Of a stretch of 30,257 bases of DNA, positions 9,365 through 28,739 are shown piece after piece. Every line of letters begins with the position of its first letter. The first letter of the stretch is position 1. Origin of the DNA: a virus. The stretch is from positions 1 through 30,257 of IMG/VR virus record IMGVR_UViG_3300049893_000797. One strand, 5' to 3'. Below the pieces are notes generated by a model. It was not told the origin of the DNA. It saw only the letters and a list, made by a program, of their open reading frames with translations, and made no database searches. Position numbers and translations under genes: made by a program.

Positions 9365-9784
9365 TTAGGATATGGAGCGGCAAGCGGGATTTGAACCCGC
9401 GACATCGGCGTTGGAAGCGCCGTGCTCTACCGGCTGAGCTATTGCCGCACTATCTTCTGCGCTGTTTGGTTGCCACTCATCAACGTATTCAGGTTCCGGC
9501 ATATCGTAAACAGTGCGCTGGATGTATTGCCGCCATTCAACTGGAAGCTTTTCACCGCCATCGAGAACCTTTTTTGCGTACCAATTCGGCGCGTTGATGT
9601 TCATTTTGCTTACGTTGCCGATACAAACGTGATCCCCACCATACGTGTGCAGTAGCACTACTCGGCAACGTCCGTGACTACCAGAATCCGTGCCTGAGTT
9701 GTAATTGTGATTATTCGCGTGCGTTGAAATCGGCAAGCATTGATCGCATTGTTGAAGTATCGCTATCAATTCAGATACGGTCAT
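9365..9784 (-). CDS. Conserved-looking phage protein whose 3' end contains a tRNA gene (139 aa)
   Basis: I choose ATG 9784 (MTVSELIAILQQ), with AAGGTGG just upstream; ATG 9799 is in frame but lacks a better site. The core has the look of a small phage family with THANNHNYN, SHGRCRVVLLHTYGGDHVCIGN and NAPNWY motifs (residues about 21-75). Function is unknown. From about residue 114 the frame runs through the tRNA-Gly at 9373-9448 and only stops at 9365, so the last 26 or so residues (AAIAQPVEHGASNADVAGS) are tRNA sequence read as protein. That tail is probably not part of the original fold. It is the last gene of the leftward unit. Confidence 0.75.
   Translation of the reverse strand: MTVSELIAILQQCDQCLPISTHANNHNYNSGTDSGSHGRCRVVLLHTYGGDHVCIGNVSKMNINAPNWYAKKVLDGGEKLPVEWRQYIQRTVYDMPEPEYVDEWQPNSAEDSAAIAQPVEHGASNADVAGSNPACRSIS
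9373..9448 (-). tRNA. tRNA-Gly(UCC), CCA encoded
   Basis: The complementary strand folds as a full 76 nt cloverleaf. The acceptor GCGGCAA pairs with TTGCCGC. The D-arm includes GCTC/GAGC. The anticodon stem CGGCG/CGCCG carries the loop CTTCCAA (anticodon TCC, Gly). The T-arm is GCGGG-TTCAAAT-CCCGC. Discriminator T and an encoded CCA follow. All stems are perfect, so it should be functional. It lies wholly within the 3' end of a protein reading frame on the same strand and would be released by processing of the leftward transcript. Confidence 0.95.
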
Positions 9785-23471: not shown

Positions 23472-23999
23472 TTAGTTGCTCGGTAACAAGTCACGCACAG
23501 CGTCTCCCAACCTTTTCCCCTGAACTTTGTTTTGCAGTTCTCGCAACGTAATTTGCGGGAGGGCTTCTCGTGTTTCTTCAACGTCTGACAATTCCTCATA
23601 AGCTTCTTTGAACCTACGCTCTATATGCGGTAATGCCGTCTCGGTATCCGCCATTGCAATAGCACGATAACCACCGATAGCTTTAACGGCGCGATCGATT
23701 CGGCCTCCAGGAGTTTCGCCACCACGCCAACACGTACAGCTCTTGAGTGCAATAGTCCATGCCTCACCTGATGTTTTTTCTGCGGCTCTCTTTAGCTGGC
23801 GAAAGTGATAGGGCGAAGGCATGAATTCAACCGCTGAAGCTAAATGCGATGCCGCAGCTTTGAAATCTGTTAGCGCCCAATCTTTCATTGCGGCCCACCA
23901 AATTTCATACGCTTCTTTTGTCAACTGGTTTCCGCCTGGCTTAATCGCGGCAAGCCCGACAAGCGTTTTAATAAACTCAGTCTTTTCATCCTCGATCAT
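23472..23999 (-). CDS. Probable phage replication accessory protein (175 aa)
   Basis: The start at ATG 23999 has GGAG seven bases upstream and overlaps the DUF1376-type gene by 14 nt; ATGs at 24029 and 24020 are less likely. The N-terminal half (IKTLVGLAAIKPGGNQLTKE, YEIWWAAMKDW, AVEFMPSPYHFRQLKRAAEK) resembles proteins downstream of phage initiators that act as helicase loaders or partners (P-like). The C-terminal half is helical (PHIERRFKEAYEELSDVEE). The role is inferred mainly from coupling to the initiator-type gene. Confidence 0.65.
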   Translation of the reverse strand: MIEDEKTEFIKTLVGLAAIKPGGNQLTKEAYEIWWAAMKDWALTDFKAAASHLASAVEFMPSPYHFRQLKRAAEKTSGEAWTIALKSCTCWRGGETPGGRIDRAVKAIGGYRAIAMADTETALPHIERRFKEAYEELSDVEETREALPQITLRELQNKVQGKRLGDAVRDLLPSN

Positions 24000-24753
24000 T
24001 TGAAGACTCCAGCCACTCATGAGCCGCATCTATATTTGATTTTTGTCTAACCTCTCCCTTTGTTAGCGGAGGATTCCAAAGCTCACGCCACCCTTCATTT
24101 CTTCCTAAAAAAGTGGCGGCTTGCTGGACGTATTGTGTCCCCTCATCCCCTTTCGCCCGTATGAAGGCCGCGTAGCGCCTAACACCGGCCAGAATTTCAT
24201 CGTGGGAGATTCCAGCGGCGCAGTGTTTAGCATAGGCGCTCTTGGCTTCTCCCCATCGCTGACCTCCGGCTCTCTTTGGGTATTCGTTTTGTACATCTAT
24301 GAACTTATCAAGCTCTCGTGTGGCGCGCTTCGTGCGCCATGTCTTAGATTCTTCTGATTTTGATTGTTCTGGAGATTGATTCGGAGATGGAGATGGAGAT
24401 GGAGATGGAGATGGATGCGTGCGGAGTGCGTTCGCTGTCCGCGCGCCTAGCGCACGCTGAGCGTACAGAGTCTGAGCTTTTTGCCTATGGATTTCGAGCC
24501 TTGGGTTTTTGCGTCCGGCGCAATTCACTGGGAATTTAGGCTCTATGCGCGGCCAGCAAGTAGCCCATTCAGTCTCCGTCGCGCCGCATAACAGGCGTAA
24601 TTCTTCTTGGTCTATGGGTAGTTCCCCCATGTCCCATTGTGCGTCTAAAAGCTCCCTATACGCTCCGCGAGCAATAAGGGGCCAACCTCTAGTCGATGAC
24701 ATGAAGTCACGAGGAAACCAGGGCATCATAAAAAGGGATTGAGGCTGCCGCAT
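23986..24753 (-). CDS. DUF1376-type replication initiator / replisome organiser (255 aa)
   Basis: The N-terminal domain (about 10-75) has WFPRDFMSSTRGWPLIARGA, YRELLDAQWDMGELPIDQEE and TETEWATCWPRIEPKF, the pattern of DUF1376 proteins, which are phage replication initiators of the O-like type. A Ser-Pro repeat linker follows (PSPSPSPSPSP near 114-124), then a basic C-terminal domain (KFIDVQNEYPKRAGGQRWGE, AATFLGRNEGWRELW). The ATG at 24753 abuts the previous stop. With no phage polymerase in the window, it probably recruits the host replisome at a phage origin. Confidence 0.85.
   Translation of the reverse strand: MRQPQSLFMMPWFPRDFMSSTRGWPLIARGAYRELLDAQWDMGELPIDQEELRLLCGATETEWATCWPRIEPKFPVNCAGRKNPRLEIHRQKAQTLYAQRALGARTANALRTHPSPSPSPSPSPNQSPEQSKSEESKTWRTKRATRELDKFIDVQNEYPKRAGGQRWGEAKSAYAKHCAAGISHDEILAGVRRYAAFIRAKGDEGTQYVQQAATFLGRNEGWRELWNPPLTKGEVRQKSNIDAAHEWLESSNDRG
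24383..24412. repeat. Five tandem GGAGAT units (microsatellite)
   Basis: Exactly five copies of the hexamer GGAGAT on the plus strand (ATCTCC on the coding strand), encoding the Ser-Pro linker of the initiator-type protein. The unit keeps frame, so slippage would only lengthen or shorten the linker. Confidence 0.95.
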
Positions 24754-25550: not shown

Positions 25551-25633
25551 GCCGATATTTCGTAAATGGTAGCGGGTCTGACTGTAAATCAGATGCTTTG
25601 GCTCAGGCGGTTCGATTCCGTCTCGAGGCACCA
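25551..25633 (+). tRNA. tRNA-Tyr(GUA)-like sequence, acceptor stem imperfect
   Basis: A good 3' half: anticodon stem TCTGA/TCAGA with loop CTGTAAA (anticodon GTA), a 12 nt variable region as in class II tRNA-Tyr, T-arm GGCGG-TTCGATT-CCGTC, discriminator A and an encoded CCA. The D-arm is plausible (TCG/CGG with TAAATGGTAG loop). The 5' acceptor GCCGATA pairs with TCGAGGC at only four of seven positions, so it may be a pseudo-tRNA, a divergent phage tRNA, or have its true 5' end elsewhere. Confidence 0.5.
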
Positions 25634-26397: not shown

Positions 26398-26541
26398 TAT
26401 CTCTCTCCGCCCGGTACTCACCCCGGATTGGTGTTGCTCAGTAGCGAGCGTTGTCGACGGGTGCTATTATCCGGATAGGCAAAGGCAATGACATGAGCTG
26501 CACACTGATTCGCGTGTAGGGGAAACCCGCAATAACCTGAG

Positions 26542-26582
26542 TTATCCACAGGCAGATTGACTTATCCACAGGCTTATGTACA
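26542..26582 (+). promoter_or_regulatory. Two perfect DnaA boxes plus one weak box (candidate origin)
   Basis: TTATCCACA occurs exactly at 26542-26550 and 26562-26570, 20 bp apart, inside a 12 bp direct repeat TTATCCACAGGC. A weaker TTATGTACA follows at 26574-26582. Two perfect 9-mers this close are unlikely by chance and suggest binding of host DnaA for replication or transcription control. No obvious AT-rich unwinding element is adjacent. Confidence 0.7.
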
Positions 26583-26584
26583 CT
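26557..26584 (+). promoter_or_regulatory. Candidate late promoter overlapping DnaA box 2 (TTGACT-N16-TACACT)
   Basis: TTGACT (5 of 6) at 26557-26562 and TACACT (4 of 6) at 26579-26584 with 16 bp spacing point towards the terminase genes. The second DnaA box begins in the last base of the -35 and fills the spacer, so DnaA binding would compete with RNA polymerase. Confidence 0.4.
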
Positions 26585-26629
26585 TCGCGCCACAACCGTG
26601 GCTCAAAACATACTAATGAGCAGTACAAG

Positions 26630-26671
26630 AGCGCCGCACCGGGAGTACACCGAGTTAGCGGCGCTATTCTT
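26630..26671 (+). terminator. Terminator-like hairpin in the leader of the terminase operon
   Basis: AGCGCCGC (26630-26637) pairs perfectly with GCGGCGCT (26658-26665), followed by ATTCTTTTG. The loop is 20 nt and contains a CGG/CCG extension. It lies between the candidate promoter and the small terminase start, as an attenuator would. Confidence 0.45.
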
Positions 26672-26791
26672 TTGCCGGATTAGCCATGCCTCACCCTTTG
26701 TCAAAAGAGTCAAAACGCCATTTTGTCGCACGATACATGGCCAGCAAAGAGACACAGCGATCCTTTCCAGCTCAATCGGACGGGAAATAAA

Positions 26792-27232
26792 ATGCCAGCA
26801 GGTAGGCCAAGCGAATATACGCAAGAATTAGCCGATCTTATGTGTGCGCTTCTTGCGGATGGTCAAAGCTTAAGGAAAGTCTGTGAGAATGATTGGGCTC
26901 CAGACAAAGCTAGCGTTTTCAGATGGTTGCGAACAATACCTGAATTCTGCGACCAATACACGCGGGCAAAAGCAGAAGCGGCCGAATCAATGGCCGATGA
27001 CATGATTGATATTGCGGATGATGCTAGCAATGACTGGATGGCGAAACACGATCCTAATAATCCCGGCTACATGCTGAACGGCGAGCACATAAACAGATCG
27101 AGATTACGTGTTGATACGCGAAAATGGATTGCGGCAAAGCTCAAACCGAAGGTGTACGGAGACAAAATAGAACACGAACACACCGTCTCCCTATCCGACC
27201 GCATGAGTGCATTGCTTGGCAGCGATAAGTAG
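26792..27232 (+). CDS. terS: Terminase small subunit (146 aa)
   Basis: The ATG at 26792 follows ACGGGAA; upstream GTG 26723 in frame would add a non-conserved tail. MPAGRPSEYTQELADLMCAL (1-20), then a helix-turn-helix region (SLRKVCENDWAPDKASVFRW) and a C-terminal part (RLRVDTRKWIAAKLKPKVYG) match the usual small terminase of this phage type. It binds the packaging start site and feeds DNA to the large subunit. Its end overlaps the next gene by 26 nt. Confidence 0.9.
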   Translation: MPAGRPSEYTQELADLMCALLADGQSLRKVCENDWAPDKASVFRWLRTIPEFCDQYTRAKAEAAESMADDMIDIADDASNDWMAKHDPNNPGYMLNGEHINRSRLRVDTRKWIAAKLKPKVYGDKIEHEHTVSLSDRMSALLGSDK

Positions 27233-28739
27233 CCGCATTGATTGGGATGGTATCGCAAAATGGCTGCTGAGCTGTCGCCATGATCCCATTAAGTGGGTAC
27301 ATGAAGCTTACCCGTGGGGGCATAAAAATACCGAATTAGCTTTACTCAAACCAAGACAATGGCAGCTAGAGCAAGCCGAGCGCATCAAGCAATGCCTGCA
27401 AAGCAATCCCTTTGAAGTAATCCAAGAGGCCACGGCATCAGGGCACGGCATAGGTAAGAGCTGTGAAATAAATATGCTCGCTCAATGGGCATTGATGACC
27501 GCGCCGAAAACACGCGGAGTCATTACAGCCAATACTGAGGCGCAGTTGCGTACGAAGACTTGGCCCGAGATGGGCAAATGGTACGGATTGCTCCCGCCAG
27601 AAGTACGCGAGCTATTCGTATATGAATCAACATCGATTCATGTTCGGGACAAAGACCCAGAAGAAACAAAAATTTGGCGCATTGATGCAGTACCGTGGAG
27701 CGAGTACAACACCGAAGCGTTCGCTGGACTGCACAACAAAGGGAAGCGTACCTTTTTAGGTATGGATGAAGCTAGCGCAATCGCTGATAAGGTATGGGAA
27801 GTTGCTGAAGGCGCGCTCACGGATGAGAAAACCGAAATGATATGGCTTGCATATGGCAATCCAACACGTACAACCGGCGCATTTAAGGAATGTTGGGGAC
27901 GCCGTAAGCATCGCTGGCGTACGCAGAACATCGACTCGCGTACTGTAGAGGGCACCAATAAGGCGCAGCTACAGAAGCTCGTGGATGATTATGGCGAGGA
28001 ATCCGACCGCGTTCGTATTCGCGTGCGTGGGCTCTTCCCGCAAGCATCCAGCTTGCAATTCATCGAGTCGAATCTAGTCCGTGAGGCGATGGATCGCGAA
28101 CCTATTGCGGGTCTACGCGATCCACTCGTGATGGGCATTGATGTAGCGCGGGGCGGCGCAGATAACTTCGTCGTATGGTATCGCCGAGGCATGGATGCTA
28201 AGAGCATTCCGCCGATCATCATCCCCGGCAGCGATGCACGGGATAGCAATCGCGTGATTGCAAAGATCACTGATTTGGCCGCAACGCGCGACAACTTTCG
28301 CAAACCGGACGCGATATTCGTCGATGAGACGGGAATAGGTGGGCCTATTGTGGATCGCTTGCGGGTCTTGCTCGGCGAGCAATTCCCTGTCATGGGCGTG
28401 CAATTCGCCGGTGCGAGCCCTAACCCGCGTCTAGCCAACATGCGCATGTATATCTGGTGGCAGCTCCGCGAGGCGCTCACGATGGGCTTATCATTGCCCA
28501 GTGATGCAGTGCTTGAGACCGAACTCACCTCGCCGGAGTATTGGCATGATAAGCGCGACAAAGTGATCTTGGAGCCAAAAGATGAGATGCGCGAGCGTCT
28601 ACCCGAGATTGGCTCGCCTGATCGCGCCGATGCTCTTGCGATCACGTTTGCATATAACATTCAGCCAAGGCACCATACAGCTTTAGTTAACAATGCCGGT
28701 CGCGCACTCACCGAGTATGACCCCTATGCGAGGGACTAA
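27207..28739 (+). CDS. terL: Terminase large subunit, ATPase-nuclease (510 aa)
   Basis: The start used is GTG 27207; a TTG at 27216 is also possible, and both lie inside the terS end. ATPase: Walker A SGHGIGKS (78-85), Walker B RTFLGMDEAS (181-190), coupling motif WLAYGNPT (213-220). Nuclease: GIDVARGG with Asp312, IFVDETGIGG with Asp373, and GSPDRADALA near the C-terminus. It drives DNA into the procapsid and cuts concatemers. Length is normal and all key residues are present. It ends in a TAATG overlap. Confidence 0.95.
   Translation: MHCLAAISSRIDWDGIAKWLLSCRHDPIKWVHEAYPWGHKNTELALLKPRQWQLEQAERIKQCLQSNPFEVIQEATASGHGIGKSCEINMLAQWALMTAPKTRGVITANTEAQLRTKTWPEMGKWYGLLPPEVRELFVYESTSIHVRDKDPEETKIWRIDAVPWSEYNTEAFAGLHNKGKRTFLGMDEASAIADKVWEVAEGALTDEKTEMIWLAYGNPTRTTGAFKECWGRRKHRWRTQNIDSRTVEGTNKAQLQKLVDDYGEESDRVRIRVRGLFPQASSLQFIESNLVREAMDREPIAGLRDPLVMGIDVARGGADNFVVWYRRGMDAKSIPPIIIPGSDARDSNRVIAKITDLAATRDNFRKPDAIFVDETGIGGPIVDRLRVLLGEQFPVMGVQFAGASPNPRLANMRMYIWWQLREALTMGLSLPSDAVLETELTSPEYWHDKRDKVILEPKDEMRERLPEIGSPDRADALAITFAYNIQPRHHTALVNNAGRALTEYDPYARD

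Follow-up and report, generated by a model that had tools for sequence, protein, structure and literature searches.

A pair of DnaA boxes upstream of the terminase genes of an epsilon15/AF-type podovirus, and recurrence of phased box arrays before terminase genes in other viral sequences

We found two perfect DnaA boxes 20 bp apart at the point where the leftward early genes and the rightward late genes of a viral sequence diverge, 5' of terS-terL. Arrays of the same box, phased on the DNA helix, recur before terminase genes in many unrelated viral sequences. This recurrence suggests that a host replication protein may serve phages at the point of entry into their late genes.

The window, that is the whole stretch of DNA analysed, is a linear virus record of 30,257 bases (IMG/VR IMGVR_UViG_3300049893_000797) and represents a fragment of an epsilon15/AF-type podovirus. 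Late genes occupy the plus strand, with virion proteins and the tail spike at the left end and terS, terL and the connector at the right end, while the early genes, read leftward, occupy the stretch from about 26.4 down to 9.4 kb. The gene for the terminase small subunit (26792-27232, plus strand; phrog_1482, E 2e-45) also has an alternative TTG start open at 26723, and is followed by the gene for the large subunit (27207-28739, plus strand; phrog_5902 and phrog_2), which begins about 645 bp downstream of the boxes. A gene for a replication initiation or helicase-loader-like protein lies at 23986-24753 on the minus strand (phrog_9327, phrog_270, phrog_1701). TerL is 52-53% identical to that of Pseudomonas phages PfDIW6 and AF and 43-45% identical to that of epsilon15 and phiV10; Pseudomonas phage HU1 is also among its relatives (AF, PfDIW6, HU1 and epsilon15 together, 45-53%). 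The podoviruses epsilon15 and AF share the morphogenesis module of the window. A search of the phage collection found nothing related to the region at the DNA level, and scanning viral contigs with TerL as a single protein gave no loci. We also observed a tRNA-Gly(TCC) at 9373-9448 on the minus strand, exactly where the rightward late genes meet the leftward early genes, which may be a phage tRNA or the remnant of an attachment site. A second, weak tRNA match (25551-25630, plus strand; 34 bits with Rfam, no call by ARAGORN) falls between the gene for an HNH protein and the intergenic region that divides early from late genes.

Both boxes are exact matches to the 9-mer TTATCCACA on the plus strand, at 26542-26550 and 26562-26570, as the sequence-only reading had reported, and are 20 bp apart from start to start. 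Repeat comparison showed that each box is the core of a longer unit of 16 bp, TGASTTATCCACAGGC, which is directly repeated within 26538-26573 as TGAGTTATCCACAGGC and TGACTTATCCACAGGC. This consensus is the one assumed for the host DnaA. By chance 0.16 perfect boxes are expected per window and two were observed, while same-strand perfect pairs within 10-40 bp are expected 1.4e-5 times per window. Boxes with at most one mismatch were not enriched across the window (4 found, 4.7 expected), thus only the pair is unusual. A third box, weak and with two mismatches, TTATGTACA, follows box 2 by 12 bp on the plus strand (26574-26582).

Pairs of this kind are frequent in viral contigs. A scan for two TTATCCACA boxes exactly 20 bp apart returned at least 120 matches, as did a scan allowing any gap of 1-31 bases. 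Among the matches listed, the spacing histogram of the any-gap scan shows clusters at 11-13, 21-24, 29-34 and 40 bp; with the 20-bp pairs, which come from the exact-20 scan and are absent from this histogram, the second class becomes 20-24 bp. The spacing of the window pair lies within the second-turn peak, and that of its third box fits the 11-13 bp class, the commonest in viral arrays, although weak third boxes were rejected as a general feature of those arrays. Helical phasing of the TTATCCACA pairs was strong, with R = 0.68 at 10-10.5 bp among the matches listed. In contrast, control pairs built from the reversed motif and scanned alike gave R = 0.19 at 10.5 bp and 0.67 at a period of 3. 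Phasing with period 3 is typical of coding sequence. Since the helical phasing is absent from the control, the TTATCCACA pairs behave as protein-binding arrays.

The arrays are also placed non-randomly with respect to genes. When the genes nearest to the arrays were assigned by PHROG scans, terminases came first, together with HNH nucleases and ParB-like proteins; among the control genes listed, which were taken from these loci at distances above 2 kb, no terminase family had two members. Iterated TerL profiles, applied to simple ORFs in loci that are incomplete at their ends, identified 83 TerL genes in 231 loci, and among the matches listed the array was upstream of TerL in 78 of the 83 and in 26 of 28 TerL lineages. 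The array lay no more than 2.5 kb upstream in 19 of the 28 lineages listed, against 7.1 expected under uniform placement. The control motif was upstream of TerL in 6 lineages and downstream in 5, with 3 of 11 within 2.5 kb against 2.4 expected. Restricting the comparison to intergenic gaps left a smaller terminase excess that was still present (18 of 27 within 2.5 kb against 10.7 expected, P = 4e-4). Of the six profile seeds, five had been picked from genes beside arrays, and their lineages are favoured in these counts; when five near-upstream lineages were dropped outright, at least 14 of 23 still carried a near-upstream array. In two loci with arrays just upstream of TerL (L314 and L355), and also in L363, the boxes are contained in the 3' end of a putative terS, where they read in frame as Leu-Ser-Thr. 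After the boxes and before TerL, these three loci carry C-runs and GC-rich hairpins that may be a packaging site.

The array does not belong to the packaging module in which we found it. A perfect box pair was present upstream of TerS or TerL in none of 44 TerS loci, upstream of terminase in none of 53 TerL loci, and before terminase in none of 80 prophage loci. Since the closest TerS and TerL relatives, viral and prophage, are without the pair, we rejected the idea that the site is conserved with the epsilon15/AF packaging module. Unlike the window, epsilon15 and PfDIW6 have no boxes before terS. Pseudomonas phage AF has two one-mismatch boxes, TAATCCACA and TTAACCACA, 20 bp apart (starting at 42131 and 42151, spanning 42131-42159), right after a terminator and about 0.6 kb before terS; this may be a coincidence.

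Loci of one TerL lineage, L025 (L520-L599; TerL identity at least 89%), were sampled by TerL and not by boxes. Among 70 loci, 41 contained no perfect box, 19 contained two, nine contained three and one contained four, and none contained exactly one. The 41 loci lacking arrays had no one-mismatch forward box either, and no boxes occurred inside 80 TerL genes of the lineage. Where present (29 of 70 loci), the array occupied a fixed slot 430-550 bp upstream of TerL. This all-or-none pattern indicates that the array is an accessory element, gained or lost as a whole, and a role in regulation or in adaptation to the host accounts for it better than an obligatory origin does. A conserved promoter in this lineage was considered and rejected, since TATACT-CCC was matched in only 10 of the 70 loci. 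The lineage provides natural pairs with and without an array.

The region between the window boxes and terS contains two further elements. By motif match, a candidate σ70 promoter lies on the plus strand at 26557-26584, with TTGACT at 26557-26562, a 16-nt spacer and TACACT at 26579-26584. It is weak, matching 9 of 12 positions; by chance the 2.1 kb scanned should hold 2.1 matches of this quality, and 12% of shuffled versions of the intergenic region reach the same score. Box 2 had been described as filling the spacer of this promoter, and its position inside the spacer holds, but the promoter match itself is within chance and is the weak part of the observation. The hairpin is a different matter. 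Folding and a stem scan placed a terminator- or attenuator-like hairpin with a U-rich tail at 26630-26674 on the plus strand, with arms AGCGCCGC (26630-26637) and GCGGCGCT (26658-26665) and the tail AUUCUUUUG. The perfect 8-bp stem, noted before as about 45 nt downstream, proved better than described, because it extends inside the loop to a nested stem of 13 pairs with a 7-nt loop (-20.5 kcal/mol). The 93-nt region containing it has a folding z of -3.8, with none of 200 shuffles as stable, and no other perfect GC-rich stem of 8 bp followed by a T-rich tail occurs on the plus strand in 30 kb. The hairpin is terminator-like.

From this layout we tentatively infer, as the likeliest reading but at rather less than even chances, a DnaA docking array that acts as a repressor or timer of entry into the packaging operon, the repression ending when multiplying phage copies titrate DnaA. 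Host DnaA would dock at the array in the divergent region between the leftward early and rightward late genes. At low phage copy number, DnaA on boxes 1 and 2 and the weak third box would cover the candidate late promoter. Once replication has raised the number of phage copies, their boxes would titrate DnaA and the promoter would open. The leader hairpin would then further limit read-through into terS-terL. We prefer repression with release by titration to activation, because a protein bound at box 2 would cover the promoter. Against the docking array stand the chance-level promoter match, the presence of only two perfect boxes, the relatives that carry TerS and TerL without boxes and the lack of a DNA-level relative in the collection. 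The sequence-only reading had suggested that the site couples replication initiation by host DnaA to late transcription. Of that reading, the non-chance pair, its position at the divergence and the recurrence of such arrays before terminase in unrelated contigs are supported; an origin at the site is unsupported, and the direction of the coupling is doubtful.

We consider it somewhat unlikely that the array is instead a phage replication origin or an accessory part of one, in which DnaA would open or mark the region, a phage loader would bring host DnaB, and early and late genes would run co-directionally with two forks. This is the canonical role of DnaA, and the loader-like gene is about 2 kb from the site, where two perfect boxes and one weak one are found. 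Each of five near-complete contigs contained a single array cluster, and the positional bias before terminase could reflect origins merely located at the early/late boundary. However, no AT-rich unwinding element was found beside the window boxes, where the AT profile is flat, nor in the average profile adjacent to 187 viral arrays; E. coli oriC, for comparison, reaches 0.76 AT in a 25-bp bin. The earlier reading had named in advance a skew minimum elsewhere as counting against it, and the cumulative GC-skew minimum of the window falls at 24317, within a plateau that spans roughly 24-27 kb. Because skew tracks gene strand along the whole window, it argues only weakly for or against an origin. 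Six other contigs were checked after detrending: in three, each with a strand switch at the place, the minimum lay within 40-260 bp of the array, and the other three had no minimum at the array. Skew was therefore rejected as general proof of an origin, and the three contigs with a nearby minimum keep the origin alive as an alternative. The absence of arrays from most L025 members also argues against it, as do repeats in the rep gene that offer another origin. These GGAGAT hexanucleotide repeats (24362-24416) encode a Ser-Pro linker, adjoin the skew minimum and are a possible candidate for a lambda-type origin. At the window site itself the case for an origin is weak.

Less probable, and in our judgement doubtful, is a lambda-like attenuation. 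Here a constitutive late promoter at 26557-26584 would produce a short leader RNA, halted at the hairpin until some unrecognised antiterminator of the phage lets transcription through, and the DnaA boxes would be incidental or would only modulate the promoter. The order of elements is that of lambda-type late control, with a candidate promoter, a short leader of about 45 nt and a strong hairpin with its U-rich tail before terS. Epsilon15 has an annotated terminator just before terS (39646-39672), one is readable in phage AF, and PfDIW6 carries a Q gene. The promoter, on the other hand, is weak. Lambda has Q antitermination, but the scan of about 35 ORFs in this contig, which is a fragment, revealed neither a Q-like gene nor any antiterminator family, in agreement with the earlier reading. 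Terminators before terS as a general rule were also rejected (6 of 38 relatives, against 4 of 38 for a control region). The earlier proposal that antitermination is needed to enter the packaging operon is permitted by the anatomy but is weakened by the promoter and by the ORFs scanned. Finally, it is improbable that the phage DNA soaks up or alters DnaA, like datA or DARS, so that host chromosome initiation stops and the position before terminase merely reflects free non-coding space: plasmid-borne boxes do titrate DnaA, a DARS is present in the ColE1 origin (PMC5835720), and the L025 arrays are facultative in a fixed non-coding slot, but two boxes would titrate little and the terminase enrichment persists within intergenic gaps.

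DnaA boxes in phage DNA are already known one by one, and each known system resembles the window in part. DnaA is a transcription factor that represses dnaA and mioC through promoter boxes (PMC5835720). In these E. coli genes consensus boxes lie within or between promoters; they are host genes, whereas in the window both promoter and binding are candidates. Host DnaA activates transcription at ori-lambda, linked to replication (PMC8203912). There it acts on early/replication transcription, while the window array adjoins the terminase operon. DnaA boxes have been noted in the injection-stop region of T5, in the left terminal repeat (PMC13250531). T5-like phages, like the window, have TTATCCACA boxes in a divergent non-coding region and carry the string GACTTATCCACAGGCTTATRTACA found at the weak third box of the window, and a string of 24 bases is common to the window site and some of them; unlike the window, the T5 region is in a terminal repeat, is tied to two-step DNA transfer and is not terminase-linked. 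In the T5-like Yersinia phage phiR2-01 (L399, 1450-1545) the array, 24 bases of which equal those of the window, lies in a 1.4-kb divergent non-coding terminal-repeat region.

In the literature searched, which covered few subscription papers, we found no paper on arrays ahead of terminase or on the enrichment of phased arrays before terminase in several TerL families. It is unlikely, though conceivable, that many unrelated phages independently place DnaA arrays at packaging-operon entry and read DnaA occupancy there as a measure of copy number, so timing the change from replication to packaging. The arrays before terminase connect the control of host replication with the packaging decision in a way that can be tested.
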